Shown in pieces: positions 27,941 through 46,857 of a stretch of DNA of 46,857 nucleotides (the first letter of the stretch is position 1; each line of letters opens with the position of its first letter). The notes below the pieces were generated by a model. That model ran no database searches and was not told where the DNA came from. It saw only the letters and a program-made list of their open reading frames with translations. The stretch spans positions 1-46,857 of the forward strand of contig CANGGL010000006.1 in the NCBI GenBank assembly GCA_947453465.1, in the 5' to 3' direction. The stretch comes from Microbacteriaceae bacterium (lineage in GTDB: Bacteria > Actinomycetota > Actinomycetes > Actinomycetales > Microbacteriaceae). A program made the translations under genes and the position numbers.

Positions 27941-27946
27941 AGAACT

Positions 27947-27952
27947 AATCTA
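27947..27952 (-). promoter_or_regulatory. Predicted -10 of leaderless channel gene
   Basis: TAGATT on the minus strand is followed by AGTTCT and the ATG at 27940. There is no Shine-Dalgarno. Confidence 0.4.
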
Positions 27953-27996
27953 CCGGCGACAGGTTTCCGATTGGTTAATCGTCAATTCTGAGCGGC

Positions 27997-29157: not shown

Positions 29158-29230
29158 TTTTCCCCCGGAGGCAAATCTAACATTGGCACCTCCCAATGGA
29201 CTGCCGCTAATCTAATCCCTGGGGGTTTAG
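29158..29230. promoter_or_regulatory. Divergent promoter region with a G5 tract facing each gene
   Basis: In these 73 bp each flanking start is preceded by GGGGG: GGGGG-AAAA-ATG on the minus strand (29157) and GGGGG-TTTAG-TTG on the plus strand (29231). TTAGAT on the minus strand and TAATCT (29208-29213) on the plus strand resemble -10 elements upstream of the tracts. Confidence 0.5.
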
Positions 29231-30705: not shown

Positions 30706-31730
30706 TGCGCAACCTTTTCGGTCACACCCGTGCCACTCGTCTGCCTGGGCTGCTCCTAGTCATCTCGACTATCTTGCTCGCGATCTATGGACTGTTCGCC
30801 GCTGGCTTGCAGACCACCCCGGTGAGCGTCGACAAACATCTCGCCGACAACCGCACCGACATTTGCACCCCCAAATATGTCGAGGGTCTTGACCCAGAGT
30901 TCATTTCAGAGAACGGTTGCCCGAGCGTGGTTCAGGCGCTGGTCACCTTCGACAAGGTTGACGTGGTAAGCGCGAAGCAGGCAAACCTTCGCATCCGCTT
31001 GTTCCCGGATGGCGACCAAGGCATGTCTCTCCATAACGGCGGCGTGCTGTTCGGTGGCACCCTGCTCAGCTTCGACGGCACCGGCCAAACCAACTTCTAT
31101 TTGAACGCGGATGAATGGGCTCAGGCTCAGACGGCGACGGTGCCCCTCAAAAATATGGCGGCCCTATCGGGATATCCGTTCGACAAATATGACGGCAACT
31201 TTTCGATGCTTCTGCAGAGCACCGAAACCGGAGAAACTCTGCCGCTCTGGTTGACCGCGAGCCCGACCGAGGTTCCCGGATACTCGGTGACGTTGAAGAA
31301 GGTGCCGCAACCCGAAGACATGGGCAGGGTTGTTTCGGCCAATACCGTCGGCTATGGCAAGCTCGATTTTCACATCGAACGCTCAACCAGCGACATCTTC
31401 CAGGTAATGCTGCTGATGTTCGTCTTGTTGGTTGGTGCCGCCTCAGCCGCGCTAACCACCTGGTTTATTGTTCGCGGGCACCGTCCACCATCGCTTGGCA
31501 TCCTGGCTTGGTTGGCAACTTATCTGTTCTCACTAATCCAAGTTCGCAATCAGTTTCCGGGCAGTCCGCCACTCGGTCTGAACCTCGACCGCTTCTTTAC
31601 CTTCCCGGCGATTGCGCTTGTGCTGGTCTTCATCCTCATCACCGCTTGGGCCTGGCTTCACCGCGCTGACTGGGATATGGGAAATAACGATGATGACAAA
31701 ACCGTAGATGTGCCAGAGCGGGTTGGATAA
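30705..31730 (+). CDS. DUF4436-like membrane protein, second copy
   Basis: This 341-aa protein is a diverged paralogue of the preceding gene. The start is GTG 30705 (MRNLFGHTRATRLPGLLLV), which overlaps the previous stop; the track's 30636 lies inside the upstream gene. It shares the topology: one N-terminal helix, an external domain with LSGYPFDKYDGNF, and three C-terminal helices with VRGHRPPSLGILAWLATYLF and FPGSPPLGLNLDRFF. The external parts differ strongly between the copies, which may mean a heterodimer or different ligands. It ends 30 nt before the first long paralogue of the secreted family. Confidence 0.82.
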   Translation: MRNLFGHTRATRLPGLLLVISTILLAIYGLFAAGLQTTPVSVDKHLADNRTDICTPKYVEGLDPEFISENGCPSVVQALVTFDKVDVVSAKQANLRIRLFPDGDQGMSLHNGGVLFGGTLLSFDGTGQTNFYLNADEWAQAQTATVPLKNMAALSGYPFDKYDGNFSMLLQSTETGETLPLWLTASPTEVPGYSVTLKKVPQPEDMGRVVSANTVGYGKLDFHIERSTSDIFQVMLLMFVLLVGAASAALTTWFIVRGHRPPSLGILAWLATYLFSLIQVRNQFPGSPPLGLNLDRFFTFPAIALVLVFILITAWAWLHRADWDMGNNDDDKTVDVPERVG

Positions 31731-31751
31731 ACTCAAAACACAGTAGTTTTC

Positions 31752-31760
31752 GGGGGAAAA
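31752..31760 (+). promoter_or_regulatory. G5-A4 leader in front of the first tandem paralogue
   Basis: GGGGGAAAA lies directly before the ATG at 31761. The identical nine bases precede the starts at 29157 (minus) and 44545. GGGGG could pair with the anti-Shine-Dalgarno CCUCC through a central G-U wobble. Confidence 0.55.
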
Positions 31761-33338
31761 ATGAATAAAATCGTCCGCATCGCGGCCATCATCTCGGCAC
31801 TCGTTCTGGTTCCAGCATTGCCGTCTTTCGCCGCTGGCTTTGTTCCTACTGGAATAAATGAAGACAAGACCGGGAAGGTCGCATTCACAGTCGAAGACCT
31901 GCCTGATGGCGCCCCTTGGATTTCGCTAGCAACTGCGCAAGATGCGCCGGGCACATCACCGACAAACTCGAGCACAATGTGTCACAGCTTCACGAAGGAT
32001 GACTGTGCCACAAGTACTAACATGTTTGGAACCGCGATCATGCCGGTCTGCGGCGAAATAGTTGAAAACTGCATCGCAGGGCTCAAGATTTACAAGGTCG
32101 GCGAAGAGCCGGTTGCCGCTAAGTTCATCAAACAAGTTCAAGGTTTTACTTTCCCAAGTGAGCCACAGTACGGGAATCCGCAAGGATCAACACCTTCGGT
32201 GTGGGAATCAAACGTCGTAAACGCGGGTGGATCAACAAAGTATGTTGTCAGCCCACACATCAACTTCAGTATTACGGCCGGCAGACTTCATTATGCAAAT
32301 TTTTCGGCAAACGTCTTTCCGATTGTCGACAAATTTGCAGCCAACTTCAGGCCATCGGATATTCGTACTGTTACAGAAAATGGCTATCGAGTTTCAAATC
32401 ACGACAACGGTGAAAACACAGGAAATGATCTTTGCGCGGCTACCGAAACTGGCTGGTGCGCCTATCGTTCAGACTTTGCCCCGAACACTCGCGTGGAGCT
32501 CGACTTGAAGCTTTCAAACGCCGTCACCGGTTGGCTTCACGGGCGTCTCACTGCTCCTGAGATTGAAGTGACCAATATCGATGGCAACTTCAATGCCGTT
32601 TCAATTACAGGGAACCCAGTAGAAATCCCGATGATGTACGCCGTGATTGACAAATCAAAGGCATCCGCAGCAGTGCAGGATGCCCTTTCTAGAGGAAACA
32701 ATTCTTGGGGTGGCCTTCACCAAAACGGTGAGCTGTGGCGCAAATACTCGAGCGATAACAGTCTTGCACGCACGCTAATTCCAGAGGTGGCGGCCTCAAT
32801 TAAAGACACCGCCGCTGACAGCAACACCAGCTGGCAAGTGAAGTCGATCCAGACCCAAGGCTACGAAAACGAATGTCTTAAAGACACGAGTCGTTTGATT
32901 GGCCTAGTAACCACTAATGCAATGGCCTATGCTGGCGGGGCACCTGCTTGGGAAAATAACACACTCGCTTACGAAGTGGCCGGCCTCCACTACATGCCAG
33001 ACGGCAAGACCGCTGTCGAGGGAACCTATGATTTGGCGATCCGAAGTGATACTGCACGCTGCTTGTATGGCTTCAGCAAGGCGCCAATTTCCGCGACGAT
33101 CAACGTCACCGGGGCTAATGGAGAGACCAAGACCGCTACGACTGTAGTAAATGAAAAAGACGGTTGGCTCAAGCTCGCCGCTTACGGTTTCACGTTCAGC
33201 TCGCCAACGATCTCAGTGAAGCTAAGCCAAGCCAAGGCGCCGGCCAAGAAGACCACAATCTCCTGCGCAAAGGGCAAGCTCGTCAAGAAGGTAACGGCAG
33301 TTGGCCCTAAGTGCCCTGCCGGTTACAAGAAGAAGTAG
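31761..33338 (+). CDS. Tandem secreted paralogue 1 (525 aa, Cys-rich, KKK tail)
   Basis: This is the first of seven related secreted proteins of unknown function. The signal peptide is MNKIVRIAAIISALVLVPALPSFAA. Landmarks shared by all seven are a C-x(7-9)-C pair near residue 75, CGEIVENCI near 95, a CAATETGWC pair near 230, the GWLHGR motif near 256 (followed by P-E-I), and ECLKDTS. Next come VTTNAM, the RCLYGFSKAPISATI block near 432, a beta-rich segment GFTFSSPTISVKL, and the tail CAKGKLVKK...CPAGYKKK. This copy has a G5-A4 leader and heads the array, with gene 2 starting 3 nt after its TAG stop. No catalytic motif, LPXTG or transmembrane anchor is visible. Confidence 0.85.
   Translation: MNKIVRIAAIISALVLVPALPSFAAGFVPTGINEDKTGKVAFTVEDLPDGAPWISLATAQDAPGTSPTNSSTMCHSFTKDDCATSTNMFGTAIMPVCGEIVENCIAGLKIYKVGEEPVAAKFIKQVQGFTFPSEPQYGNPQGSTPSVWESNVVNAGGSTKYVVSPHINFSITAGRLHYANFSANVFPIVDKFAANFRPSDIRTVTENGYRVSNHDNGENTGNDLCAATETGWCAYRSDFAPNTRVELDLKLSNAVTGWLHGRLTAPEIEVTNIDGNFNAVSITGNPVEIPMMYAVIDKSKASAAVQDALSRGNNSWGGLHQNGELWRKYSSDNSLARTLIPEVAASIKDTAADSNTSWQVKSIQTQGYENECLKDTSRLIGLVTTNAMAYAGGAPAWENNTLAYEVAGLHYMPDGKTAVEGTYDLAIRSDTARCLYGFSKAPISATINVTGANGETKTATTVVNEKDGWLKLAAYGFTFSSPTISVKLSQAKAPAKKTTISCAKGKLVKKVTAVGPKCPAGYKKK
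33240..33338 (+). repeat. 99-bp 3'-end repeat, copy in paralogue 1
   Basis: The last 99 bases of this gene and of paralogue 2 (34821-34919) differ at only two positions by eye: one internal a/c and the final base of the stop codon. The upstream parts of the two genes differ widely. This points to recent gene conversion or strong constraint on the tail-coding DNA. Confidence 0.85.
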
Positions 33339-33341
33339 GAC

Positions 33342-34919
33342 ATGAAGAAACTAATCCGCATAGCAGCCGCTGTCGCCGCATTGGCATTGATTCCGGTTCT
33401 TCCGGCTTTCGCGTCAGACTACACCCCGCCAGGCGCAGACGTCACAAAGGGCATGGTCGGCGTTTACATCCCTGACCTGTCTATTGGTGCAATGAATAAT
33501 TCTCTAGTTGTCGACGGTAATTCAGTCCCTGATGCTGCCGGGCTCAGAAAGTTTTGCCCCTCGATGGAAACCGGTGGCTGTGGCCTCACTGGTAACTACT
33601 TTTACAAGGTGATGGCGGTGCTGCCTCCCTGCGGAGCCATTCAGGACAACTGCATCGAATCCGTTGATATTTACAAGGATGGCCAGCAGCCATCGCCCGC
33701 GAAGTACCTCAAGAGTGTCAATGGAATTAGCTTCTCAACTACCCCCGGAATTGGAAATCCAACGGGGTCCACTCCTTCAATTTGGGAAGCAGCGTCCGTA
33801 CCCAATTCCGCAGGATCGACCAAGTATGTCGTTACCCCAGGGCTCAACTACGAGGTCAGGAACGGCAAGTTTACGATCACTAATTTCGGCCTGATGGTTT
33901 CTCCGGTCGTGGATGTTTTAAACGATAATTTCACTCCTGCAAAAATCGGATACAACACCATAAATGGGCAGATAAGCACTCACGTTGAAGATGGAAATAG
34001 GTCAGGAACCATGGAATGCGCGGCAACCGATTCAGGGTACTGTGCTAAAAAGGTGGACTACTCAGACGGAACCAGAGTTCGCGTGTCGCTCCGTCTTTCT
34101 AACAAAGTGACGGGCTGGTTGCACGGTCGTGTCTCAAATCCTTCAATCAGCGTCGAGAAGATATCTGGAGTTTCGAACCGAATCACAATCGATGCAGACC
34201 CAGCCGTCGTGCCGGAAATGTACGCAGAGGTTGATTACCAGGCTCAAACTCCAAGGGTTCAACATGATTTGGATAACATGTACAGCGGCGGAGGAAATGA
34301 CTTCCTCCACAAGACGTGGCGCACGTATCCACCGGAGAGCCCGATGGCATTTGACTTTGTTCAACTCTTTGCTAGCCAGGCAAAAGATACCGTCGCAAAT
34401 GTGAAAACCTCTTGGACAATCGCTTCGTTCGGAGAGGGTACTAGCGACAACGAGTGCCTCAATGACAACTCCAAGTTAGTGGGTGTTGTCACGACCAATG
34501 CGCTTTCGTATGACGGTGGAGCACCACGTTTCGATGGCACTACGTTGAAATATCGAGTAGCTGGACTGCACTGGATGCCGGATGGCAAAACGCCGGTTGA
34601 GGGCACCTATGACCTTACGATGCGAAGTGAAACAGCACGTTGCCTCTATGGATTCAGCAAAGCACCGATCTCGGCATCGATCACTGTCACAGGTGCGAAC
34701 GGGGAATCTAAAGTGGCCACGACCGTGGTTAGCGAAAAGGATGGCTGGCTTCACTTGGCGGCCTATGGGTTCACATTCTCTAGCCCAACTATCTCGGTGA
34801 AACTTAGCCAGGCAGCTGCACCGGCCAAGAAGACCACAATCTCCTGCGCCAAGGGCAAGCTCGTCAAGAAGGTAACGGCAGTTGGCCCTAAGTGCCCTGC
34901 CGGTTACAAGAAGAAGTAA
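33342..34919 (+). CDS. Tandem secreted paralogue 2 (525 aa)
   Basis: It has the same architecture as paralogue 1. The signal peptide is MKKLIRIAAAVAALALIPVLPAFAS, followed by the cysteine pairs FCPSMETGGC, CGAIQDNC and CAATDSGYC. The GWLHGR motif is near residue 256, with ECLNDNS, RCLYGFSKAPISASI and the KKK tail beyond. ATG 33342 is only 3 nt after the previous stop, whose TAG forms part of AAGTAGGA. Ribosomes probably re-initiate after finishing gene 1. It is closest to paralogue 1, sharing a nearly identical 99-bp 3' end. A strong terminator follows, so genes 1 and 2 make one transcription unit. Confidence 0.85.
   Translation: MKKLIRIAAAVAALALIPVLPAFASDYTPPGADVTKGMVGVYIPDLSIGAMNNSLVVDGNSVPDAAGLRKFCPSMETGGCGLTGNYFYKVMAVLPPCGAIQDNCIESVDIYKDGQQPSPAKYLKSVNGISFSTTPGIGNPTGSTPSIWEAASVPNSAGSTKYVVTPGLNYEVRNGKFTITNFGLMVSPVVDVLNDNFTPAKIGYNTINGQISTHVEDGNRSGTMECAATDSGYCAKKVDYSDGTRVRVSLRLSNKVTGWLHGRVSNPSISVEKISGVSNRITIDADPAVVPEMYAEVDYQAQTPRVQHDLDNMYSGGGNDFLHKTWRTYPPESPMAFDFVQLFASQAKDTVANVKTSWTIASFGEGTSDNECLNDNSKLVGVVTTNALSYDGGAPRFDGTTLKYRVAGLHWMPDGKTPVEGTYDLTMRSETARCLYGFSKAPISASITVTGANGESKVATTVVSEKDGWLHLAAYGFTFSSPTISVKLSQAAAPAKKTTISCAKGKLVKKVTAVGPKCPAGYKKK
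34821..34919 (+). repeat. 99-bp 3'-end repeat, copy in paralogue 2
   Basis: This is the partner of 33240-33338, with two mismatches by eye. It encodes the beta-segment end and the two-cysteine lysine tail. Confidence 0.85.
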
Positions 34920-34946
34920 CCAAGCACAGGACGCTCAGTGCCAAAC

Positions 34947-34983
34947 AAGTGATGCCCCGGTCAAATTGACCGGGGCATCACTT
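34947..34983. terminator. Bidirectional terminator after paralogue 2
   Basis: This is a long perfect hairpin. AAGTGATGCCCCGGTC pairs with GACCGGGGCATCACTT around AAATT, followed by TTTTG on the plus strand. It separates paralogue 2 from the convergent minus-strand gene at 35006. Confidence 0.93.
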
Positions 34984-35005
34984 TTGAATCGGGAAAGGGT
35001 TCGAT

Positions 35006-36256
35006 TTACTTCTTAGCCTTGCCTGCACCACAGGTGTAAGCGGTGACCTTTGAGACCTTCTTGGTCTTGAGGTCAACACAGGTTAGCTTCGCCTTCACAG
35101 CCCACTTCTTGTACTTAGGGTTGCGGATGATCTTGAAGTTTGGCTTTGAGTAGCTGTAACCAGATGAGTCGATGATGATTTTGTTGTTCTTCACAGCAAC
35201 CTTGGTAAGCGCAGCTGAGCTTCCACCCTCTTCGGTAGTGATCTGAACGGTGAGAGCCGAAGCAGCATCCTTAGGGTTGGTTAGGCCCCAAAGAAGAAGC
35301 GCATCGTTCACCGGAATCGAAGCCTTGTAGAAACCCTTGTTCACGGTCACGCCATCCTTGGCAAAGTGAGGTGCCGACGCTGTCCATGAAAGCGACTTGG
35401 TCGCTTCGTCCCAAACCGGGGTCGAGGTTCCACATGAGCCGTTGGTGCCAACTGCCATGTTGCCTGAAACGCCATCAACACCGAAGCCCATGTCATCGTT
35501 AGCAACGATGATGGTTGCCTGCAGCTGAGAAACGTTGGCGATTGCAACGCCAGCCTCACCTGAGCAAGCACTCACCTTGTCGGCGATTGCAACCGGTACT
35601 GCTGAACCAGAGATGGTCAAGGTGTTGCCCTGAGCATCGGTGCCCTTGGTTACTGAGATTGAGTTGCCGATACCGACAGTTACGTCAGTGATGGCAGCAC
35701 CAACGCGAACCTTGATGGTGATGATGTCATCTGGGCTCAGCGAAACCGCATACTTGGCGTTGTCAGCCTGGTTTGCCTGGGTGGTCGCGTTTGAGGTTGG
35801 GTCAACCTTTACTGGGCGAACATCGAAAAATAGGTGGTTGGTGAAAGCGTTAGCTGCCTTCACATCAACGAAAAGGCCGTCATAACCAAGGGCGTTGCGG
35901 CCATCGGCAGACCAGGTCTCAGTTGACCAGCGGCCTGCAACGGCAGCGCCTGCAACCGAAGTAACAACGGCTGGCTTGTCGGTGGCGTCAGCGGTGCCGG
36001 TGGTTGCCGGTGCTGCCGGAGTGGCCACCGCCCCCAGGGCAACGCCTGACTTAGCGAAGGTAAGTGGCTCGCCCTGAGCCATGCCAAGTGACTGAATCGA
36101 GACTGACTCGACACAGAAGGTGACCCAAGTTTCGTCACAGGCTTTGAATGAAGTTTTTGGCACTGCAAAGGTCGGGGCAGCTGTTGCTGCTGAGACCGGA
36201 GCTAGTGCTGCGCCGACCAAAATGGCCGAGGCAATGATTGCTTTAATGCGGTTCAT
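35006..36256 (-). CDS. Secreted Ala/Thr-rich protein with C-terminal module, 416 aa
   Basis: The function is unknown. The signal peptide is MNRIKAIIASAILVGAALAPVSAATAA. The mature protein is rich in Ala, Thr and Val and beta-prone. Its C-terminal part (SSGYSYSKPNFKIIRNPKY) aligns with the beta-segment of the seven paralogues, and the tail KLTCVDLKTKKVSK...YTCGAGKAKK is a degenerate version of the two-cysteine tail. It interrupts the array on the opposite strand between paralogues 2 and 3. Its leader reads GGGGG-TTTCATTC-ATG. It is diverged from the 525-aa family over most of its length and is closer in plan to the 27997 protein. Confidence 0.82.
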   Translation of the reverse strand: MNRIKAIIASAILVGAALAPVSAATAAPTFAVPKTSFKACDETWVTFCVESVSIQSLGMAQGEPLTFAKSGVALGAVATPAAPATTGTADATDKPAVVTSVAGAAVAGRWSTETWSADGRNALGYDGLFVDVKAANAFTNHLFFDVRPVKVDPTSNATTQANQADNAKYAVSLSPDDIITIKVRVGAAITDVTVGIGNSISVTKGTDAQGNTLTISGSAVPVAIADKVSACSGEAGVAIANVSQLQATIIVANDDMGFGVDGVSGNMAVGTNGSCGTSTPVWDEATKSLSWTASAPHFAKDGVTVNKGFYKASIPVNDALLLWGLTNPKDAASALTVQITTEEGGSSAALTKVAVKNNKIIIDSSGYSYSKPNFKIIRNPKYKKWAVKAKLTCVDLKTKKVSKVTAYTCGAGKAKK

Positions 36257-36441
36257 GAATGAAACCCCCAGTTTCTAAAGTGGTGCAAAGCACGTCTGCC
36301 GTGCTTCCCCAAGTTCTGCCTAAACGGGCATTGTTTTAAGCGTAGCGGAAATGCCCAAACCGAGCCGAGTTCGTTATAAAAACGGCATTTTGACGAATCT
36401 CGTAACCGGTAATCTTAAAGTCACGAACTTGGGGGTTTTCG
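36257..36441. promoter_or_regulatory. Divergent promoter region between the 35006 and 36442 genes
   Basis: This is a 185-bp gap. A G5 tract faces each gene: GGGGGTTTCATTC before 36256 on the minus strand, and GGGGGTTTTCG (36431-36441) before 36442. A TAATCT hexamer at 36410-36415 is a possible -10 for the plus-strand operon of paralogues 3-7. No clear operator was seen. Confidence 0.5.
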
Positions 36442-38022
36442 ATGAATAAGCGCTCGCGCATCCTTGCTACTGTCACGGCAGTGGCACTAGCCATTGGAGT
36501 TCCGAACGCCGCTGCCTTAGCCGACAGCTGGGCGGTTCCACAGCCAAACACTGCGCCGTCGGATGGCAGCTGGGTAGTCGTGAACGAATCCGGCGGCTTC
36601 GACCTTTGGTCTACTCGAGAATCACACCGAGGTGGCAGCGAGGGATACATTTGCGCAAACGGACTTGGCACGCTGTCTTGCGACTTCACAGATCAGGTTT
36701 GGCATTTCACGGGCTCTCAAATTTTGCCTTTTTGTGTGACAGATGACCAGGAAAACTGCCTCGAGGGCATTTCGGCCATAAAGGCCGACGGCGCAGTTGT
36801 CCAAGGTAAGTTTCTTCACACCGTAGAAGGCGAAAAGTGGAAGGCCGTACCTGAAACTGGTCTTTATGAGGCGACTATGCCTGCCCTTTTCGAAATTCCT
36901 GGCGTGAAGAACAGCAGCGGAGCTGCCACCTACGTTGTTGTTGTTAAGACCAGCCTCGAATTCGACCAGTCAACCAAGAAGTTCGTCACTCGTTCGATGT
37001 CTGCCAATGTTTTTGGCTATTCGACGAAAACTTCAGGCTCCCAACCGACTAGGACTGAGGCGAAAATCGATTCCGACGGCATTAGCCGCATTTATCAGTT
37101 TCATGACCCAAATTGTCTATTCACTGAGACCAACGTGTGTGGAATCGAACAAGATTTCCCTAAGGACACAGCCTTTCAAGTTACGGCGCGAATCCCAAAT
37201 GAGGTGGCCGGTTGGTTCCATGGCCGCATGACCCATCAGGAAATTGCCATTGACAAATTTTCCGCGACAAACAACAAAGTTTCGATAAAGGCGAACCCGG
37301 CAGACGTTGCGCGCATGGCAGTTATTGCTACACGTGCCAACTCTTCAGAAACTGCTCAAGCTATGTTGATGCACCGCGGCGGACACGGCGGTTACACAGC
37401 ATTCAACGGAAATAGCATCAAGGACTTTTGGGCAACCGAGGGCGCTGAGGCATTCTTCGCGCTCAACGAATGGCGAGACGAGATGAAAGACACGGCGGCC
37501 GGAATATCAACGGAATGGAACTTTGCAACCGTTGGCAGTCAACCCGGAAATCAGTGCATGAAGGACACAGCCAAGGTGCTTGGAATGGTGACTACCAACG
37601 CGACGCTTTATAGCGGCGCAGCGCCCGAGTTCACCGGTGGCCAACTGAAGTACACGGTCGGCGGGCTTCATTATCAGCCAGATGGCAGGAGTCTTAACGA
37701 AGGTACTTATGACCTACTTATGCGATCGGATGTTGCCCGATGCCTATATGGCTTCAGCAAGGCCCCAATCTCAGCAACCATTTCAGTCGTCGGCGAAGGT
37801 GGCGAAAGCAAGGTTGCAACGACCGTTTTAAATGAAAAAGATGGTTGGCTGCACCTAGCTGCCTATGGCTTTAGTTTCAGCTCGCCAACGATTTCAGTTA
37901 AGCTCACGCAGGCCGGTTCGACTTCGGCTAAAAAGACCACAGTCACTTGTGCCAAGGGCAAGCTGACCAAGAAGATAACTGCAGTTGGGCCGAAGTGCCC
38001 TGCCGGTTACAAGAAGAAGTAG
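36442..38022 (+). CDS. Tandem secreted paralogue 3 (526 aa)
   Basis: This is the head gene of the second run of the family (paralogues 3 to 7). The signal peptide is MNKRSRILATVTAVALAIGVPNAAALA. Shared marks are CANGLGTLSC, CVTDDQENC, CLFTETNVC, GWFHGR near residue 255, QCMKDTAK and VTTNATLY. The RCLYGFSKAPISATI block, GFSFSSPTISVKL and tail CAKGKLTKK...CPAGYKKK complete the pattern. The start is preceded by GGGGGTTTTCG instead of a purine-rich Shine-Dalgarno. The C-terminal third is far better conserved with the other copies than the N-terminal two thirds. The product is probably exported and surface or matrix associated (inference). Confidence 0.85.
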   Translation: MNKRSRILATVTAVALAIGVPNAAALADSWAVPQPNTAPSDGSWVVVNESGGFDLWSTRESHRGGSEGYICANGLGTLSCDFTDQVWHFTGSQILPFCVTDDQENCLEGISAIKADGAVVQGKFLHTVEGEKWKAVPETGLYEATMPALFEIPGVKNSSGAATYVVVVKTSLEFDQSTKKFVTRSMSANVFGYSTKTSGSQPTRTEAKIDSDGISRIYQFHDPNCLFTETNVCGIEQDFPKDTAFQVTARIPNEVAGWFHGRMTHQEIAIDKFSATNNKVSIKANPADVARMAVIATRANSSETAQAMLMHRGGHGGYTAFNGNSIKDFWATEGAEAFFALNEWRDEMKDTAAGISTEWNFATVGSQPGNQCMKDTAKVLGMVTTNATLYSGAAPEFTGGQLKYTVGGLHYQPDGRSLNEGTYDLLMRSDVARCLYGFSKAPISATISVVGEGGESKVATTVLNEKDGWLHLAAYGFSFSSPTISVKLTQAGSTSAKKTTVTCAKGKLTKKITAVGPKCPAGYKKK

Positions 38023-38025
38023 GAA

Positions 38026-39621
38026 TTGAACTTGAAGGCATCACATAACCTCATTGCTGGTCTTGCTGGCCTTCTAATGCTCGGCTCAGCCTTGCCTGCA
38101 TTTGCCGCGGATCGCTACAACCCGATGGACACCCCGGCTCAACCTGGAACCCACCAAGGCACTGGCCAGGTCATCACCTCGATCGTCGACGGTGGCGGTG
38201 GCGGTGGCGAAAATGACCTAGTCATTCAACCGGGAGCCGTCGAAGCAGGCGGAACACGCGGAGAGTGGCTTCACTGCTATGGTTCGGGCGACCCAACTTG
38301 TGATTACAACAAGCCTGGCATCGACATTTTGTCTTGGGTCATTTTGCCTAACTGCTCAAATACATCCTCGCCTTATTGTGTGAAATCGCTAGAGGTTGCC
38401 GCGCCGGGCGAAGAGCTGAAACCTGCCGAGTTCCTTGGTGAGGCAAAAAAGGGCCTCATTATCCCGGGCGACCCGGCAACGGGGTTAATCCAGTCCGGTC
38501 GACCATCGCTTTTCGATGCTACAAATGCCGCAAATGCCGGCGGTTCAACAACCTATTCGGTGACAGTAGTTGCCACTTCTCACTTCAATCAGGGAACCAG
38601 GCAATATCAAATAACGGATCTAAACGCCTCAATTGTGGCCTACAAGAACGAGGCGGGGCAATATCAGGCGAGCTACTTCGATAAGAGCCAGAAACCTGGT
38701 ATGGCACGTCGCGGAGGCGGTGACATGTCAGTTTGCGCGTTCTATGAGGATGGCAATTGCGGCCGCATTCAGGATTTCACTTCGGGGACTCGCTTCAAAC
38801 TTCAAATGGTGATTCCTAAGGCTGTCGGCGGTTGGTTCCAGGGCCGAATGAAGGATCCACAGATCGCTGTCGATTCTTCCTCAACTCTTGGCAACGCCGT
38901 GACCATTGAAGCCGAACCAGTGACGGTTCCGCGCATGGCGGTTGTTCGAAACTTCAGCGATTACACCACCGAAGAGAAGACCTGGTTCCAAAACAACGGC
39001 AGTTGGGGCTCCGGTGGCAAAATCGGCACCGGTCCGCTAGCCGGTCAGTACAACGTTTTCGATGTGGTTGATTTCTACCGTCCTTTCGCCAAGGACACGG
39101 CTTCAGGCGTTCAGACTTTCTGGTATCTGGGAACCGTGATGGGAGGTCCGGGTAGCCCATGTCTCTCCGACACTTCAAAACTTATGGGCGTAGTGACAAC
39201 CAACGCTATGGGTTTCGACGGTCGTTCGCCAGCCTTTGAAAACGGCTACCTGAACTACCGGGTTACCGGTTTTCACTTCATGCCAGATGGCACTACCCCG
39301 GTTCAAGGAACATATGACTTATTGATGTCGAGTGACGCTGCCAGATGCCTTTATGGCTTCTCAAAGGCTCCAATCTCGGCAACAGTTTCAGTCGTAGGCG
39401 GTGACTCGAATTCTGTCGCGACCACGGTGGTTAGCGAAAAGAATGGTTGGCTAAAAATGGCCGCCTATGGCTTCACTTTCAGCCAGAAGACACTGAGCGT
39501 GCACATGACACAGGTCAAGGCGCCAGCCGTCAAGAAAACAATTACCTGCGTTAAGGGGAAAGTCACTAAGAAAGTGACGGCGATTAATGCGTCCTGCCCT
39601 GCTGGCTATCAGAAGAAGTAG
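38026..39621 (+). CDS. Tandem secreted paralogue 4 (about 530 aa)
   Basis: The signal peptide is HNLIAGLAGLLMLGSALPAFAA. A Gly-rich stretch (DGGGGGGEND) follows and is unique to this copy. The cysteine pairs are CYGSGDPTC, CSNTSSPYC and CAFYEDGNC. The GWFQGR motif is near residue 268, with CLSDTSK, VTTNAM, RCLYGFSKAPISATV and the tail CVKGKVTKK...CPAGYQKK after it. The start is uncertain: TTG 38026 is 3 nt after the previous TAG, while TTG 38032 has better spacing from AGGA. The ribosome-binding site is formed by the end of the preceding gene (AAGTAGGA). Confidence 0.84.
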   Translation: MNLKASHNLIAGLAGLLMLGSALPAFAADRYNPMDTPAQPGTHQGTGQVITSIVDGGGGGGENDLVIQPGAVEAGGTRGEWLHCYGSGDPTCDYNKPGIDILSWVILPNCSNTSSPYCVKSLEVAAPGEELKPAEFLGEAKKGLIIPGDPATGLIQSGRPSLFDATNAANAGGSTTYSVTVVATSHFNQGTRQYQITDLNASIVAYKNEAGQYQASYFDKSQKPGMARRGGGDMSVCAFYEDGNCGRIQDFTSGTRFKLQMVIPKAVGGWFQGRMKDPQIAVDSSSTLGNAVTIEAEPVTVPRMAVVRNFSDYTTEEKTWFQNNGSWGSGGKIGTGPLAGQYNVFDVVDFYRPFAKDTASGVQTFWYLGTVMGGPGSPCLSDTSKLMGVVTTNAMGFDGRSPAFENGYLNYRVTGFHFMPDGTTPVQGTYDLLMSSDAARCLYGFSKAPISATVSVVGGDSNSVATTVVSEKNGWLKMAAYGFTFSQKTLSVHMTQVKAPAVKKTITCVKGKVTKKVTAINASCPAGYQKK

Positions 39622-39627
39622 GACACT

Positions 39628-41196
39628 TTGCGTAAAAAATCCGCCATCACTCTGGCACTTGTTTCGGCGCTCACGCTCTGTCCTGTTGTGGCTTTAGCGG
39701 CAGATCAGTATGCGCCTGACCGTGTCGAGATGCTGCCACGCGATTCTAAAGTCTTGGTGATGATCACCGAAGAAGGGCTAGTCAACAACGAGTCTGGCAT
39801 GGTCATTCAAAACCGCCAGTTTGACCCAGCGAATCCGCATCCTGGGCCCTGGTGTACCTCAACGAAAGTCTCAACCTGTGACCTTTCAAAAGCAGAGCAG
39901 GACATACTCGCTAGCTCCATCTTGCCAATGTGTGTCGCGGCAAATGACCCGGCATGCATCGAAAAACTTGAACTGGCACCGGCCGGTGGCGATTTTGTAG
40001 AAGCCAAGTATGAACGTACGGCGACTGGTGGGTTTCTCCACGATGCAGATCCAAAGTTGAACCTTCTTCAGGGTGCAGCAGGCTCTATTTTCGATGCGCC
40101 ATCGGTTCCAAGCGCTAGTGGAACCTCTAAATACGCTGTTGTCTTAAAGGTCGGGCAGAATTTTAGTCATGCAGCTGGAAAGTTCAACTCGCCGGAATCC
40201 ATCAAGGCCATGGTTGTTCCGGTGCGCGATGACACCGGTGCCCAGTATGGAAACATCGCTGCTGATGGAAGTGGTGGAGGCGCCACAAACGTGTGTGCCT
40301 ATTTTGACGTTGGGCACTGCGGCATTCCCCAGGATTTCGCGGATGGGACTAAAGTCAGGCTCTCTATTCGCGCACCTAAGACTCTCGGAGGATGGTTTCG
40401 GGGCCGAATCAAAAGTCCGAATATCTCAGTCGAATCAGCAAATAGTTCGAGCAACCGAATTGTGATGGAGGGCGAATCTAACAACGTTGCCCGACTTGCT
40501 TATGTGCAAGAAAAAGTAACTATGACTGATGATGATCGCAACTTCCTCAGCACAACCTCTAACTGGGGAAGTCAGGCAGGAATCGCTTATGGATTCGACG
40601 GTAGTGAACAGAAGGCTCCAGAGCTTATTGACCACTTCCGCACAAAAATGAAAGACACGGCAACCGGCACTAGTTCTTTTTGGACAATGGGCACGATCCC
40701 AGGTGGTTACGGAAGTGGCTGTCTGTCGGACACATCCAAGGTATTGGGGATTGTGACCACCAATGCGATGGCATACGAAGGCTCGGCGCCGTCGTTTAGA
40801 AATGGTGAGTTGGACTACAAGGTAGCCGGTCTTCACTACCTGCCCGATGGCAAGGATGAAGTCCAAGGCTCATACAACTTAGTTTTGCGAAGCGAAACCG
40901 CCCGTTGCCTCTATGGCTTCAACAAGGCGCCAATCTCAGCCAAGATCTCGGTCACCTCAGCATCTGGGGAGGCGAAAGTTGCCACCACGGTTATGTCTGA
41001 AAAAGATGGCTGGGTCAAACTCGCTGCTTATGGCTTCACCTTCAGCTCGCCAACAATTTCGGTGAAACTAACCCAAGAGGGTTCAGCTTCTGCACCATCG
41101 GCCAAGAAGACTACTATCACCTGCACCAACGGCAAACTAACTAAGAAGGTCACCTCGGTTGGCCCTAAGTGCCCAGTCGGATATAAGAAGAAGTAG
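39628..41196 (+). CDS. Tandem secreted paralogue 5 (522 aa)
   Basis: It has a TTG start and the signal peptide MRKKSAITLALVSALTLCPVVALAA. Cysteine pairs are CTSTKVSTC, CVAANDPAC and CAYFDVGHC. The GWFRGR motif is near residue 254, with CLSDTSK, VTTNAMAY, a RCLYGFNKAPISAKI block, GFTFSSPTISVKL and the tail CTNGKLTKK...CPVGYKKK. It starts 6 nt after the preceding stop (TAG-GACACT-TTG), again using the stop codon region as ribosome-binding site. An additional Cys in the signal peptide (TLCPV) is not in a clear lipobox context. Confidence 0.84.
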   Translation: MRKKSAITLALVSALTLCPVVALAADQYAPDRVEMLPRDSKVLVMITEEGLVNNESGMVIQNRQFDPANPHPGPWCTSTKVSTCDLSKAEQDILASSILPMCVAANDPACIEKLELAPAGGDFVEAKYERTATGGFLHDADPKLNLLQGAAGSIFDAPSVPSASGTSKYAVVLKVGQNFSHAAGKFNSPESIKAMVVPVRDDTGAQYGNIAADGSGGGATNVCAYFDVGHCGIPQDFADGTKVRLSIRAPKTLGGWFRGRIKSPNISVESANSSSNRIVMEGESNNVARLAYVQEKVTMTDDDRNFLSTTSNWGSQAGIAYGFDGSEQKAPELIDHFRTKMKDTATGTSSFWTMGTIPGGYGSGCLSDTSKVLGIVTTNAMAYEGSAPSFRNGELDYKVAGLHYLPDGKDEVQGSYNLVLRSETARCLYGFNKAPISAKISVTSASGEAKVATTVMSEKDGWVKLAAYGFTFSSPTISVKLTQEGSASAPSAKKTTITCTNGKLTKKVTSVGPKCPVGYKKK

Positions 41197-41202
41197 GACC
41201 CA

Positions 41203-42780
41203 TTGAAACTCTTAATTCGATCATTGGCGATGGCAGGTGCACTAGTTCTTGTTTCATCAACTACTGCGGTTGCCAAGGATGCCTGGGCTCTAGATAACTA
41301 TCCCGAAGCGACTATGGCGGCTGACATGGCGGCGGGCATTCAGCGGGTAAATGTGTCTGAAGATGGCCAATATGTCACGACCTCAAGCATGTACGCACAG
41401 TGGAAAAGCGCCGACGGTCGCGATGACTTTGGCTTGTGCACAAACGTCGCCAAGGATGATTGCGGAAAATCGAACCTAAGCCGTATCTTCGGAACCTCGC
41501 TGTTGCCAATTTGCGGCGATGTCGTTGAGAGCTGCATCAAGGGCCTAGAGGTCTATAAAGAAGGCGCCGCGCCTGAGGCTGCAAAACTGGTTAAGCAGAT
41601 TCCTACTTTCAAAACCGAGGGTGACCCAAGGGCCGGAATCCCGCAGGGCTCAGGACTGAGCGTATTTTCAGCTCCCAACGCGCCACACACGGGTGGTAGC
41701 GAATACACCGTTATGGCGGCAGTTTCTTGGGAGTTCCGCGATGGAGAGGCTTACATCCAACAGGTTCGGATTAAGGTCTCAGGTACATCGGAGCAAGCAA
41801 ACCAGCAAGCGAGATTGCAATATCCAGGTGTTTGCACCTCTCCTGTCGGCTCAATGAACGCGGGCCAGCGAACTCCTTGCGGTGGCCCTGGGGGGCCAGC
41901 TTGCGTTTATCACCTGGTGGGCTTCTGCGGCAAAGAGCAAGAGCTTTCTCCGAATACCCGCATCAAGCTGAGCTTGCAGGTGCCCAATCAGCTAGTCGGC
42001 TGGTTCCAAGGCCGCCTCAAAGATCCGAGTGTAGAGATTTCGCCAATCGACGCTCACTACAACAAACTGTCGATTGATGCTGCTGCGGTGACTGTGCCAA
42101 GGCTCTTTGTGAAATATGACACTAAGAAGTTTGGCAATGCCCTCGAAGGCGTTTCATACGGCACAAGTGGCCTAGATGTCAAAGAAATTGAGGCGAGCAG
42201 CGACAAGACTCGCGATGTGATTCGCAAGCTAACTCTTGCCGACAATGACACTGCTACGGCAACATCAACTCTCTGGACTGTTGCCACATTAAACTCCGGC
42301 GGTAACCCGTGTTTCGCCGACACCAGCAAGGTTGTCGGAATCGTGACCACTAATGCGATGGCCTACCTGGGTTCCGCTCCGGAGTTCAAGACCGGCTCAC
42401 TGAGCTATCAGGTTGCGGGAACGCACTATCTTCCGGACGGGGTCACCCCTAGCGAGGGCACCTATGACTTGGTTATGCGGTCTGAAACAGCACGCTGCCT
42501 CTATGGCTTTAGCAAGGCTCCGATCTCGGCCACGATCTCTGTGGTGTCTGACAAGGGTGAAAACAAGGTAGCAACAACTGTGATCAGTGAGAAAAATGGA
42601 TGGTTGAAACTAGCTGCCTACGGCTTCACGTTCAGCTCTCCAACTGTCTCGGTGAAACTATCTCAGGCTGGTGCAGTTGCTTCAGCCAAGAAAACCACGA
42701 TCGCCTGTGTTAGGGGAAAGCTCACCAAAAAGATCACCTCTGTTGGGCCGAAGTGCCCTGCCAGTTACAAGAAGAAGTAA
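41203..42780 (+). CDS. Tandem secreted paralogue 6 (525 aa)
   Basis: It has a TTG start 6 nt after the preceding TAG (AAGTAGGACCCA-TTG) and the signal peptide LLIRSLAMAGALVLVSSTTAVA. It has more cysteines than its sisters in the middle region: CTSPVGSMNAGQRTPC followed by CVYHLVGFC. This suggests one extra disulfide in an insertion before GWFQGR (near residue 266). The rest follows the family: CFADTSK, VTTNAMAY, RCLYGFSKAPISATI, GFTFSSPTVSVKL, and tail CVRGKLTKK...CPASYKKK. Confidence 0.84.
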   Translation: MKLLIRSLAMAGALVLVSSTTAVAKDAWALDNYPEATMAADMAAGIQRVNVSEDGQYVTTSSMYAQWKSADGRDDFGLCTNVAKDDCGKSNLSRIFGTSLLPICGDVVESCIKGLEVYKEGAAPEAAKLVKQIPTFKTEGDPRAGIPQGSGLSVFSAPNAPHTGGSEYTVMAAVSWEFRDGEAYIQQVRIKVSGTSEQANQQARLQYPGVCTSPVGSMNAGQRTPCGGPGGPACVYHLVGFCGKEQELSPNTRIKLSLQVPNQLVGWFQGRLKDPSVEISPIDAHYNKLSIDAAAVTVPRLFVKYDTKKFGNALEGVSYGTSGLDVKEIEASSDKTRDVIRKLTLADNDTATATSTLWTVATLNSGGNPCFADTSKVVGIVTTNAMAYLGSAPEFKTGSLSYQVAGTHYLPDGVTPSEGTYDLVMRSETARCLYGFSKAPISATISVVSDKGENKVATTVISEKNGWLKLAAYGFTFSSPTVSVKLSQAGAVASAKKTTIACVRGKLTKKITSVGPKCPASYKKK

Positions 42781-42786
42781 CTTACC

Positions 42787-44373
42787 GTGAGTATTAAACG
42801 CCTATTAATTGCAACTTTACTGGCCGCAACTTTAGTCGCCGGTGTGGCATCGGTAAGTACAGCGGATACTTACCACGCACCTATGAACTCGATCCCTCAC
42901 GGTCAGTTAGGCGTTCACATTGTCGACCAGGCCTACTGGGGCGAGGGCGTGTCTGGGATATCGGTTGATCTCAAAGCCGGCGCTAAGTCGGGCACGATCC
43001 TCTGCGGTGGGCAAACTGGAACAGCTTGTGATTTTGACGCACTTGGCGCTTTGCGCATGCGGGCGAACCTGGTTATGCCTAAATGTGCCGATGAGGTTGA
43101 GGAAAACTGTATCGAAGACCTCGCTGTCTACAAAAGTGGCACCACTGCAAAGCCCGCCTCTTTTCTCAGGCAGGTCGAAGGTTCAACAACTGAACCTGAC
43201 TTGGCACAACAGCTGACTCGAGGATCAACTGCATCTCTCTGGAACGCCGAGGGTGTGAGTAATTCCGATGGCGTCGAGACGTACTCAGTCCTGGCCGTCC
43301 TAAATATGCAGCGCAATTCAGCCGCATCGAAATTTAGAGCTGGGTCGCTTAGCATCATGGTGATGCCTTACTTGGAAAAATCTTCGAAGTGGCAAATACC
43401 TGCCTCTGTGGTGCAAAATACCCGGGCTGACGGTTGGAGTACGGTGGGGAATCAGGGCGGAAATCCAGACTGCGCATGGGTAGATCAGGGCAAGTGCGGA
43501 TTTGTTTCAGACTTTGCGCCAGAGACTCGAGTGCGCCTTGCAGTGCGTTTGACGAATAGCCTCGGTGGGTGGTTCAAGGGGCGATTGAACGCTCCTGACA
43601 TCGCAATATCGAATTTCAGTTTGGGGGCCAACAGAGTTGTTCTCGATGCTGAGCCATCATCAGTTCCCCAGTTTTTCAGCCAACTAGATTTGGCGACTGG
43701 GCCAACTGACCTTGTTTCCTATATGCACGCTGGTTCTTCAGCACTAAGCGACCCTCGTGCTCCCGGAGGTACGTCATCGACTTGGTCAGACCAACAAAGT
43801 GCTTTCGATTGGATTAACAAGTTCCGATCCTTCACGAAAGACACCGCCTTTGGGGTATCTACAATCTGGTCAGCTGGAACTATTCAAGGTGGTCAAGGGG
43901 GTAAGTGTCTGAGCGATACCTCAAAGGTGTTGGGAATAGTAAGCACGAATTCGATGGTCTATGAAGGCCAGGCTCCGAGCTTTGATGGAAAAACCCTTGC
44001 CTATAAAGTCGCAGGATTGCACTTCCTTCCTGGCGGTGCTAAGGCGGCCAGAGGCACATACGACTTAGTCATGCGTTCAGATGTGGCTCGCTGCCTCTAC
44101 GGCTTCGGTAAGGCTCCTGTCTCTGCAACTATCTCGGTGGTCTCGGATAGCGGTGAAAACAAAGTTGCCACTACGACCGTGAGCGAAAAAGACGGCTGGT
44201 TGAAACTTGGTGCCTATGGGTTTACGTTTAGTGAAAACTCAATCAAGGCAAAGATCACACAGGCTGGTGCGGCAAGCGCCAAGGTTTCGAACGTTACTTG
44301 CATTAGGGGCAAAGCTTCACGCAAAGTTACTGGAGTGTCCCCTCGGTGCCCAGCGGGCTACAAGAAAAAGTAG
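42787..44373 (+). CDS. Tandem secreted paralogue 7 (528 aa)
   Basis: This is the last gene of the array. It starts with GTG, 6 nt after a TAA stop, and lacks the AGGA seen at the other junctions. The signal peptide is RLLIATLLAATLVAGVASVSTA. Cysteine pairs are CGGQTGTAC, CADEVEENC and CAWVDQGKC. GWFKGR is near residue 260, with CLSDTSK, VSTNSMVY, RCLYGFGKAPVSATI, GFTFSENSIKAKI, and tail CIRGKASRK...CPAGYKKK. It is the most diverged copy in the C-terminal block, where changes from the shared pattern are frequent. Confidence 0.84.
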   Translation: MSIKRLLIATLLAATLVAGVASVSTADTYHAPMNSIPHGQLGVHIVDQAYWGEGVSGISVDLKAGAKSGTILCGGQTGTACDFDALGALRMRANLVMPKCADEVEENCIEDLAVYKSGTTAKPASFLRQVEGSTTEPDLAQQLTRGSTASLWNAEGVSNSDGVETYSVLAVLNMQRNSAASKFRAGSLSIMVMPYLEKSSKWQIPASVVQNTRADGWSTVGNQGGNPDCAWVDQGKCGFVSDFAPETRVRLAVRLTNSLGGWFKGRLNAPDIAISNFSLGANRVVLDAEPSSVPQFFSQLDLATGPTDLVSYMHAGSSALSDPRAPGGTSSTWSDQQSAFDWINKFRSFTKDTAFGVSTIWSAGTIQGGQGGKCLSDTSKVLGIVSTNSMVYEGQAPSFDGKTLAYKVAGLHFLPGGAKAARGTYDLVMRSDVARCLYGFGKAPVSATISVVSDSGENKVATTTVSEKDGWLKLGAYGFTFSENSIKAKITQAGAASAKVSNVTCIRGKASRKVTGVSPRCPAGYKKK

Positions 44374-44389
44374 CTACTGAGGATAAAAT

Positions 44390-44548
44390 GTGCGTATCGC
44401 CTCACGTCTTGCCAACTCACCGGTCTCGTCGGCACTATCCTCATCAATCCATCATTGGCTCAGCTTAATGTGGCTAACCAGATCCTGGTCAACGATGGAT
44501 AGACTCTCAAGTGGGATGTTCTGCGTGCAACCTAAGGGGGAAAAATGA
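44390..44548 (+). other. Possible 52-codon leader ORF or decayed secretory gene fragment
   Basis: GAGG (44379-44382) precedes a GTG at 44390 that opens a 52-codon ORF (MRIASRLANS...). Its TGA overlaps the DUF3761 ATG (ATGA). A different frame over the same bases reads LTGLVGTILINPSLAQ, which looks like the end of a signal peptide. So the region may instead be the remnant of a secreted gene broken by a frameshift near 44411. The 171-bp gap holds nothing else I can identify. Confidence 0.25.
44536..44544 (+). promoter_or_regulatory. G5-A4 leader of the DUF3761 gene
   Basis: GGGGGAAAA lies directly before ATG 44545. It is identical to the leader of paralogue 1 and of the minus-strand gene at 29157. 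Confidence 0.5.
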
Positions 44549-44841
44549 ATATTCGTAATCCAAAATCACCTATGTTGCTGTTGGCCGTCACCTTGTTGGT
44601 CGGTTTGATGTCTAACGGTCCCGCCGCGATTGCTATGGATGCTTCATCGCAGGTGCACATTCATACTTGCAGTAAGGGCTATTACAAGAATTCAAACGGC
44701 GCCTGTACGAAGTCCCCAACAGCGTCTATTTCTTGGCCTGCTGGTGCGAGTGCAAAATGCCGTGATGGCTCCTACTCTTTTAGTGCCCACAGAAGTGGCA
44801 CTTGTTCTCGCCACGGAGGGGTAGCGGCTTGGACCAAATAG
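44545..44841 (+). CDS. Small secreted DUF3761-type protein, 98 aa
   Basis: The signal peptide covers about residues 1-30 (MLLLAVTLLVGLMSNGPAAIA). The C-terminal 45 residues carry the pattern AKCRDGSYSFSAHRSGTCSRHGG, which I recognise as the DUF3761 signature. A preceding CSKGYYKNSNGAC pair adds a second likely disulfide. The family has no assigned function; members are small exported proteins, often with such GYYKN and HRSGTC segments. It lies between the tandem family and a cation channel gene that starts 3 nt after its stop, so it is probably cotranscribed with that channel. Confidence 0.83.
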   Translation: MNIRNPKSPMLLLAVTLLVGLMSNGPAAIAMDASSQVHIHTCSKGYYKNSNGACTKSPTASISWPAGASAKCRDGSYSFSAHRSGTCSRHGGVAAWTK

Positions 44842-44844
44842 AAA

Positions 44845-45486
44845 ATGTTCATGTCTTTACTTCGAAAATTAGCCGCTACCTTCGCGCGTAACAGCGGATT
44901 CCTAATAGTTCTAGCAGTTATCTACTTGGCGATTTTTGCTTATCAAGTGATATCTGAACCAAGCGGAAATTTCTCTGCTTGCCTAGATCTCCTTAGTTAT
45001 GCAATCAACTTGATTTTTGTTGTGGATTTTATTTTGCGATTAGCGACCTCGCAAAGTCGAGTCCGTTTTGTTTTCTTGAATTTTATTGAGTTGCTCTCCT
45101 TGGTGTTGCCATTCATAAGAGCACTTCGCGTTTTCAGATTGATCGTCGCAGCCAATGCCATACAAAAACATCTCGGGACGAGACAAGTGCGAGCTGGCGT
45201 TAACTTGGCGATCTCGCTACCGCTCGTAGTGTTTGTGTCTGCACTCGCGATATTGGATGTCGAGAGGCATGCACAAGGAGCAACAATCACAAATTTTCCA
45301 ATTGCCATTTGGTGGAGCGTCGCTACCATGGCGACTGTTGGAGACGGAAGCTTTTCACCCGTCACTTGGGAAGGTCGAGTTGTCGCTTCAGCCCTGATGA
45401 TCGTTGGGATTGGTTTATTCGGCGCAGTGGCAGCACTCTTTGCAGCAAATTTCATCAACCCTAAGATTTCAGAAGAGAACAAATGA
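44845..45486 (+). CDS. Six-helix cation channel with a NaK-like TVGDG filter
   Basis: This 213-aa protein is homologous to the potassium channel at 27209. They share the S1-S6 plan, IELLSLVLPFIRALRVFRL at S3-S4 and the ATVG pore loop, but here the filter reads TVGDGSFSPVT instead of TVGYGDYYPVT. TVGDG is the filter of the bacterial NaK channel, which passes both Na+ and K+, so reduced K+ selectivity is predicted. Predicted helices are at about residues 18-35, 44-65, 73-90, 124-143 and 176-203. There is no cytoplasmic regulatory domain. It is visibly more AT-rich than the metabolic genes, which could reflect transfer. Its stop overlaps the next ATG (ATGA). Confidence 0.87.
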   Translation: MFMSLLRKLAATFARNSGFLIVLAVIYLAIFAYQVISEPSGNFSACLDLLSYAINLIFVVDFILRLATSQSRVRFVFLNFIELLSLVLPFIRALRVFRLIVAANAIQKHLGTRQVRAGVNLAISLPLVVFVSALAILDVERHAQGATITNFPIAIWWSVATMATVGDGSFSPVTWEGRVVASALMIVGIGLFGAVAALFAANFINPKISEENK

Positions 45487-46181
45487 CTGAAGGCCAGTTT
45501 GTATTTGCTGTACTGCTAATTGTGCTGATTGTAGTTTTTATAAAGGCTTCGCAGCGATATCCCAAGTTTGCAGCACTGTTTAAAAGAAGTCGCGGGGTTA
45601 GTTCCGAGACAGTTAGCAACGAACCGAGAATCGCTGAGCTCCGCTTATCAATTCAACTCCTTGATGGCACTGTACTTCAAAAGGATGTTGACGTTTCCAG
45701 CCCAGCAGTTTTGAAAAAAGGTGAATTCATAATTCACCAGACCCAAGGTTATTTACTTGAGTACGTTGAAGGCCCCACTCAGTTCCAAGGCGGTTCAACA
45801 GGGGTGTCGTTCGGTTTGGGTGGCAGCGTCCGAATGAATGTTGGAGGCACTAAAGGCCAAATTCAGCGAGGTCAGGAAACATTGACTGCCGTAGATCAGG
45901 GTTACATCGTATTTACTTCCAAGAGAATTGTCTTCGCGGGTTCTCGAGAGAGCCGAGAATGGACGTTGTCAAAAATATCAAATGCACAAGGTATCGAGGA
46001 TAGAAGCGGCTTCATGATTGGTTACGCGTCGCGAGCAAAACTCGAAGGTCTAAAAAGTCTTGGGTCCGATCCCTTAGTCTGGGCGCTCGAGGCTTCTTCA
46101 GCAGTCAGCCAGGACGATAAAGAGACGGCAAAAACTAAAATCGAAACGGAACTGGTCCGACTGGGGGACCCCCAGAAGTAA
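45483..46181 (+). CDS. Membrane-anchored protein with a PH/GRAM-like segment, 232 aa
   Basis: It has one N-terminal transmembrane helix (FVFAVLLIVLIVVFI, residues 6-20), a basic linker (RYPKFAALFKRSRG), then a soluble domain. The stretch GYIVFTSKRIVFAGSRESREWTLSKI near residues 139-165 resembles the strand pattern of bacterial PH/GRAM-like domains. I cannot name a family with certainty. The 4-nt overlap with the channel gene suggests the two are made together, and this protein may be an accessory or regulatory subunit on the cytoplasmic side (inference). It ends at the terminator before purL. Confidence 0.7.
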   Translation: MTEGQFVFAVLLIVLIVVFIKASQRYPKFAALFKRSRGVSSETVSNEPRIAELRLSIQLLDGTVLQKDVDVSSPAVLKKGEFIIHQTQGYLLEYVEGPTQFQGGSTGVSFGLGGSVRMNVGGTKGQIQRGQETLTAVDQGYIVFTSKRIVFAGSRESREWTLSKISNAQGIEDRSGFMIGYASRAKLEGLKSLGSDPLVWALEASSAVSQDDKETAKTKIETELVRLGDPQK

Positions 46182-46196
46182 CCCGAATGCAGAAAT

Positions 46197-46228
46197 CCCG
46201 CCAAGCCCCAAAAGGCCTGGCGGGTTTT
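46197..46228. terminator. Intrinsic terminator between the 45483 gene and purL
   Basis: CCCGCCAAGCC / GGCCTGGCGGG forms an 11-bp stem with one mismatch and a short CCAAAA loop, followed by TTTT. It lies between convergent genes and could also serve the minus strand less well. Confidence 0.85.
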
Positions 46229-46244
46229 CTAATTCAACGAGTCA

Positions 46245-46857
46245 CTAGCCAAACAACTCAGCCAAAGTGCCCTTGTGGGCAGAGGCCAAGTCGCCTAGGT
46301 TCCAGTTTGCGATGTCCTGAATTTCTAGGGTGCCTGAGTTGTCGGTGACGCCGATGCGGAGGACTGGGATTCCGCGGGCTTCGCAGAGGCCGACGAACTT
46401 CACGTCATCCTCGCGACCAACAGAAACTAGAACGCGGCCGGTTGACTCTGAGAACAGTGCTGCGGTGCGGTCGACGTTGTCGCGCTCACAGATCTCGCCA
46501 AGCCAGATGCGGGCACCCATGCCAAATCTGAGGCTACACTCAACCACTGCTTGAGCGAGGCCGGCCTCGCTAAGGTCGTGAGCCGAGGCGATTAGACCCT
46601 GCTCGCTGCCGGCGGCGATTGCCTCGGCAAGCTGCTTCTCGAAAGCCAAGTCGACTACCGGTGGGCGACCGCCCAGGTGGCCGTGGATTACCTCTGACCA
46701 AACTGAGCCATCGAGTTCATCCTTGGTGACACCACGAAGGTAGATGTTGTTGCCCTCGTCTTGCCAAGCTGATGGAATGCGGCGAGCAACGTCATCGATC
46801 ACACCGAGCACACCGACCACCGGGGTTGGGTGAATGGCAACGTCACCGGTCTGGTTA
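46245..46857 (-). CDS. purL: Phosphoribosylformylglycinamidine synthase II (PurL), 5' part outside window
   Basis: This is the C-terminal ~200 residues of the PurL synthase subunit, which makes FGAM from FGAR, ATP and glutamine-derived ammonia in purine synthesis. The frame is open to the window edge, and the first visible residues read GDVAIHPTPVVGVLGVIDD, diagnostic of PurL. ASAHDLSEAGLAQAVVEC is the second conserved AIR-synthase-like motif. The ORF-track start at 46820 is an internal GTG within that continuous frame, not a true start. It is a housekeeping gene and marks the right border of the unusual locus. Confidence 0.95.
   Translation of the reverse strand, partial: NQTGDVAIHPTPVVGVLGVIDDVARRIPSAWQDEGNNIYLRGVTKDELDGSVWSEVIHGHLGGRPPVVDLAFEKQLAEAIAAGSEQGLIASAHDLSEAGLAQAVVECSLRFGMGARIWLGEICERDNVDRTAALFSESTGRVLVSVGREDDVKFVGLCEARGIPVLRIGVTDNSGTLEIQDIANWNLGDLASAHKGTLAELFG

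Follow-up and report, generated by a model that had tools for sequence, protein, structure and literature searches.

The residues that make a K+ filter non-selective have been worked out largely from engineered mutants of NaK, a two-helix channel from Bacillus cereus (PDB 2AHY, 3E83). The NaK filter, TVGDGN, has only the two inner ion sites (S3 and S4) and passes both Na+ and K+, and two point mutations turn it into NaK2K (TVGYGD), a K+-selective pore with four sites (PMC8689586, PMC9822992). NirBac and NaKTs provide further precedent for a K+-channel scaffold whose replaced filter forms a non-selective pore (PMC4607889, PMC5052707). Specifically, NirBac2.1 has TTGTD on a KirBac scaffold and NaKTs has LPMGNGPLSP on a two-helix scaffold. 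HCN and CNG channels have six helices, cyclic-nucleotide-binding domains and non-selective filters akin to GYG, namely TIGETPPP in CNG and CIGYG in HCN (PMC2766643).

The stretch of DNA analysed here (46,857 nucleotides, hereinafter the window) encodes a channel subunit, P0001, with six helices and the filter TVGDGS, unlike that of NirBac2.1, NaKTs, HCN or CNG. We propose, with a probability of roughly 0.6, that P0001 forms a homotetrameric channel in which an intact voltage sensor is joined to a pore that does not select between Na+ and K+, its filter having been switched.

A six-helix subunit with a NaK-type filter

The gene and its segments are as follows.

44845-45486, + strand: P0001, a 213-residue six-helix (VGIC-type) channel subunit with a TVGDGS filter (open reading frame, Pfam)
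44902-44952, + strand: S1, residues 20-36 (hydropathy peak)
44983-45033, + strand: S2, residues 47-63, with the charge-transfer-type residues F58 and D61 (hydropathy)
45067-45117, + strand: S3, residues 75-91, including E82 (hydropathy)
45118-45138, + strand: S4 arginines R92, R95 and R98 (RALRVFR; R92-x-x-R95-x-x-R98)
45205-45255, + strand: S5, residues 121-137 (hydropathy)
45334-45351, + strand: selectivity filter T164-V-G-D167-G-S169, with the D167 codon GAC at 45343-45345
45352-45360, + strand: F170-S171-P172, directly past the filter and NaK-like (alignment)
45391-45441, + strand: S6, residues 183-199 (hydropathy)

P0001 matches Ion_trans_2 (1.6e-12) and Ion_trans (3.9e-10, residues 19-203), each above its Pfam cut-off, and the Ion_trans profile spans S1-S6 with 39.8 bits against a cut-off of 25. 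Hydropathy and the homologue alignment define six hydrophobic or S4 segments and a pore loop. The filter reads WWSVATMATVGDGSFSPVT, and VGDGSFSPVT at 45337-45366 (+ strand) lies in frame with the open reading frame. The initial annotation, made from the letters of the window, had described a six-helix subunit whose filter is NaK-type, TVGDG with FSP after it; the open reading frame and in-frame read, Pfam and hydropathy support this. Its S4-like arginine repeat is likewise confirmed as R92, R95 and R98, and is accompanied by F58 and D61 in S2 and E82 in S3.

We aligned 82 homologues, sampled from genus to class. F58 is kept in all 82 and D61 in 75, and the position of E82 is Asp or Glu in 71. 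The pore retains the WW pair that forms the aromatic cuff in K+ channels. S4 has only three arginines, which leaves voltage gating uncertain. No cyclic-nucleotide-binding domain was matched in Pfam, and the chain ends about 10 residues past S6, in a short tail without a cytoplasmic domain. The AlphaFold model of P0001 (pLDDT 51) is too poor to rely on.

The arrangement S1-S6, the S4 motif RxxRxxR, F58/D61 and the WW pore helix are shared with bacterial six-helix VGIC-type K+ channels (Ion_trans or Ion_trans_2) of Microbacteriaceae and other Actinomycetes, but the filter of those channels is [TS][VI]GYGD in 80 of the 82 sampled. KcsA resembles P0001 in its pore helix (WWSVxTxxTVG) and in the S5-S6 region (E ~1e-14), but has two helices, a GYGD filter and K+ selectivity. 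NaK shares TVGDG followed by x-F-S-P-x-T in an identical pore-loop register, but its two-helix subunit has no voltage sensor, and it has YF in place of WW and Asn in place of Ser after TVGDG.

The K+-selective signature, GYG or GFG followed by Asp, is replaced in P0001 by TVGDGS. At position 167, Tyr is found in 80 of the 82 homologues and Asp in two, namely P0001 and L010; at position 169, Asp is found in 80 and Ser in the same two. If the sites are taken as independent and the rows as exchangeable, the coincidence of the two proteins at both sites has a probability of about 3e-4. Among the 82, the FSP that follows is exclusive to P0001 and L010. Relative to those 80 GYG homologues, the changes in P0001, Tyr to Asp and Asp to Ser, fall at both positions that convert K+-selective NaK2K to non-selective NaK.

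L010 emerged from a search of 67 genomes of the genus, in which 15 channels were found; it is the one channel besides P0001 without GYG. It belongs to a sibling species (MAG contig CANCKM010000032.1, Microbacteriaceae, genome G050).

1447-2142, - strand, contig CANCKM010000032.1: L010, channel of the purL-linked locus, with the filter QVGDASFSPIT

L010 departs further from the filter, with Gln at the position of T164 and Ala at that of G168, which makes its behaviour harder to predict. We know of no match to its QVGDA filter. L010 is 59% identical to a GYG channel of the survey (L013).

A sequencing or assembly error at D167, a concern that the initial annotation itself had raised, is very improbable. 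A T-to-G change in a TAC codon is a single base, and the source MAG is 85% complete in 74 contigs. However, the codons differ jointly (GAC, AGC, TTT TCA against TAT, GAC, TAT TAC), and on both sides the contig runs colinear with a single contig of another genome of the genus (G056), which argues against a chimaera. L010 carries the same residues in a separate assembly, which largely removes the concern, and a base error is made very unlikely by the combination of D167, S169 and FSP, which only these two of the 82 proteins have.

Origins and rarity of the filter

Trees were built with the filter columns left out and with NaK excluded. L010 falls among the GYG channels of the genus (support 100/94), and P0001, on a long branch, belongs to a different set. 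A topology that unites the two is rejected (AU p 0.0024), and it is rejected again (AU p 0.039) when class-level relatives are included and the longest outlier and KcsA are taken out. Both trees thus reject one shared origin of the D filter for the genus, although the second p value is modest and the branch of P0001 is long. The fewest changes to a D filter on the tree are two, and the filter is, on this phylogenetic evidence, apparently of two origins in P0001 and L010. Copying of pore-loop DNA between the two was also considered and found no support: they share 46 of 81 bases, fewer than the 50 of 81 that either shares with the second channel of the window, P0002.

The likeness to NaK drawn in the initial annotation holds for the filter (TVGDG, FSP) and is confined to it. 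In pore searches, KCNQ3 and KcsA chains outscore NaK as matches to P0001. Because NaK is not the nearest relative, the NaK-like filter of P0001 is best read as convergent. Four two-helix plasmid relatives of NaK have GYG or GFG, and none has GDG.

P0001 might instead still be K+-selective, or be a decaying channel with a neutrally drifting filter. The long branch, the failure to find a P0001 orthologue in the 67 genus genomes and the loss of T164 and G168 in L010 are consistent with this. It is nevertheless improbable, because the reading frame is open, the sensor residues and WW pair are conserved, GYG is kept in 80 of 82 homologues, and the double change with FSP has two origins, an outcome that neutral drift would not predict.

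Samples of the genus, family, order, class and phylum yielded no relative of P0001 above about 43% identity, and plasmid and phage searches returned distant channels only. The best candidate for an orthologue of P0001 reached about 40%. A degenerate pattern, [aromatic]2-xxx-T-xxx-[VI]GD[GA]-x-[FY]-x-P-x-T, gave three matches over 84,980 species genomes, L010 and two chance matches, and no match in the viral contigs scanned. A looser family scan gave three further matches, which were discarded as lacking channel homology. Bacillus NaK matches the pattern whichever codons encode it, yet was not returned; we infer that the scanned collection lacks or masks it. Thus, rarity is not fully established, and the claim is limited to that collection. 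No description of a six-helix channel with a TVGDG filter was found in the literature searched, mostly without subscription papers.

A variable locus with two channels

P0001 lies at one end of a variable stretch, with a second channel at the other.

26629-27162, - strand: UPF0114 membrane protein beside P0002 (Pfam PF03350, 2.1e-33)
27209-27940, - strand: P0002, resident six-helix K+-type channel, with the filter TVGYGD at 27368-27385 (open reading frame, Pfam)
44545-44841, + strand: small DUF3761 protein, signal-like at its N-terminus, 3 bases ahead of the P0001 start (Pfam PF12587, 2.1e-24)
45483-46181, + strand: 232-residue protein with one transmembrane segment and a soluble domain, its start overlapping the P0001 stop (ATGA) (open reading frame)
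46245-46856, - strand: 3' part of purL, the fixed flank of the variable stretch (homologues of 79-96% in four genus genomes)

The last of these is taken to be purL from its sequence. Three of the four genomes with purL homologues (G056, G023 and G042) carry a channel downstream of purL, as do G041 and G050. In G042, G041, G023 and G056 it is a GYG channel on the same strand, about 1 to 37 kb from purL; in G050 the VGDA channel L010 lies 2.2 kb downstream, where its relatives carry GYG channels.

In the window, purL and the resident GYG channel bracket 18 kb, which contains an array of genes for ~525-residue proteins and, next to purL, the module DUF3761 - P0001 - 232-residue protein. Members of the genus differ in the length of the stretch from purL to the resident channel (27209-46856 in the window), about 1 to 37 kb, and this variation makes it look like an insertion hotspot. 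The array, at 31761-44373 (+ strand) and also 27997-29196 (- strand), comprises seven head-to-tail or nearby genes with signal-like N-termini; its GC3 is intermediate (0.51 in one gene). Two members were read over their whole length: 42787-44373 and 27997-29196, which is shorter and looks related. Both end in a tail of the type TCxxGKxxxKVxGxxPxCPxGYxxK.

The initial annotation had placed a GYG paralogue in the same region. The GYG channel is present, with the pore TVGYGDYYPVT, but P0001 and P0002 are not recent paralogues: they are 38% identical over 190 residues. A recent tandem duplication was rejected on this identity, and also because P0002 is 86% identical to its G056 orthologue (L009), no orthologue of P0001 was found in the 67 genus genomes, and the two differ in GC3. 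Specifically, P0001 and the 232-residue protein gene have a GC3 of 0.44; the resident channel has 0.66, and the other genes checked outside the array have 0.64-0.69. The low GC3 suggests that the module was acquired rather than duplicated in place.

The gene for the 232-residue protein is probably co-translated with P0001. The protein has no Pfam match above cut-off, and its homologues (~27-41% identical) occur in 32 of the 67 genus genomes. None lies in the other channel loci examined, and no channel was detected beside the homologues examined; a role for the gene as a conserved partner of the channel is thus not supported. The UPF0114 protein also adjoins the channel in G041 and G042, in reversed order, and may be functionally linked to the resident GYG channel.

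The presence of P0001 and P0002 in one genome, on a common scaffold, raises a different role for P0001. It could be a modulatory or dominant-negative subunit that co-assembles with P0002 and lowers its selectivity or conductance, with no pore of its own; the short tail without a cytoplasmic domain and the long branch would fit such a subunit. We regard this as unlikely, since 38% identity is low for co-assembly and the motif is coherent (Asp, Ser, FSP) rather than degraded. In addition, G050 (87% complete) has no second channel at E<=1e-5 besides L010, which would have to work alone there.

Predicted permeation and its meaning

In the proposed homotetrameric channel, each subunit would consist of a four-helix voltage-sensor domain, with three S4 arginines, F58 and D61 in S2 and E82 in S3, and a pore whose filter, formerly TVGYGD of the K+ type, is now NaK-type TVGDGS-FSP. 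On the model of NaK, Tyr to Asp and the next filter Asp to Ser would abolish the outer ion sites S1 and S2. Sites S3 and S4 would stay, beneath a wide vestibule, and Na+ and K+ would pass alike, from which we infer loss of K+ selectivity. Gating would probably be through the S1-S4 domain, in which the key residues are present. Opening of P0001 would lead to depolarisation and Na+ entry, while the resident GYG channel would allow K+ exit.

Ser169 in place of the NaK Asn, and WW in place of YF, mean that the pore of P0001 could behave differently from NaK; these residues could leave room for differing divalent permeation, gating or assembly with P0002. The filter might pass divalents or be mainly Na+/Ca2+ permeant, the ring of four Asp at the outer filter binding Ca2+ in the manner of CNG-like or NaK external sites, and external-mouth ion sites and divalent effects are seen in NaK-derived and NaKTs filters (PMC8553846, PMC5052707). 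That reading has little probability, as the backbone TVG sites S3 and S4 are still there and NaK, whose filter shares TVGDG, passes Na+ and K+; it differs in degree from the non-selective Na+/K+ pore proposed here.

What is new is a known scaffold and a known filter type in a combination that we have not found described, with two origins in one genus. It is possible, at somewhat short of even odds, that these proteins represent a new class of bacterial cation channel, non-selective and of voltage-sensor type, whose NaK-type filter evolved at least twice from K+ channels in one actinobacterial genus. If so, the genus would offer 'before and after' pairs made by nature at a single genomic locus, and this genome would hold a depolarising channel beside a repolarising one. 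The same two residues have apparently been swapped twice in nature, each time in a six-helix subunit, and GYG sisters at the same locus serve as controls. This makes it possible to test directly whether Tyr to Asp plus Asp to Ser (or Asn), together with FSP, is enough to abolish K+ selectivity in a Kv-like scaffold. The finding also raises the question of paired depolarising and repolarising channels in small bacteria.
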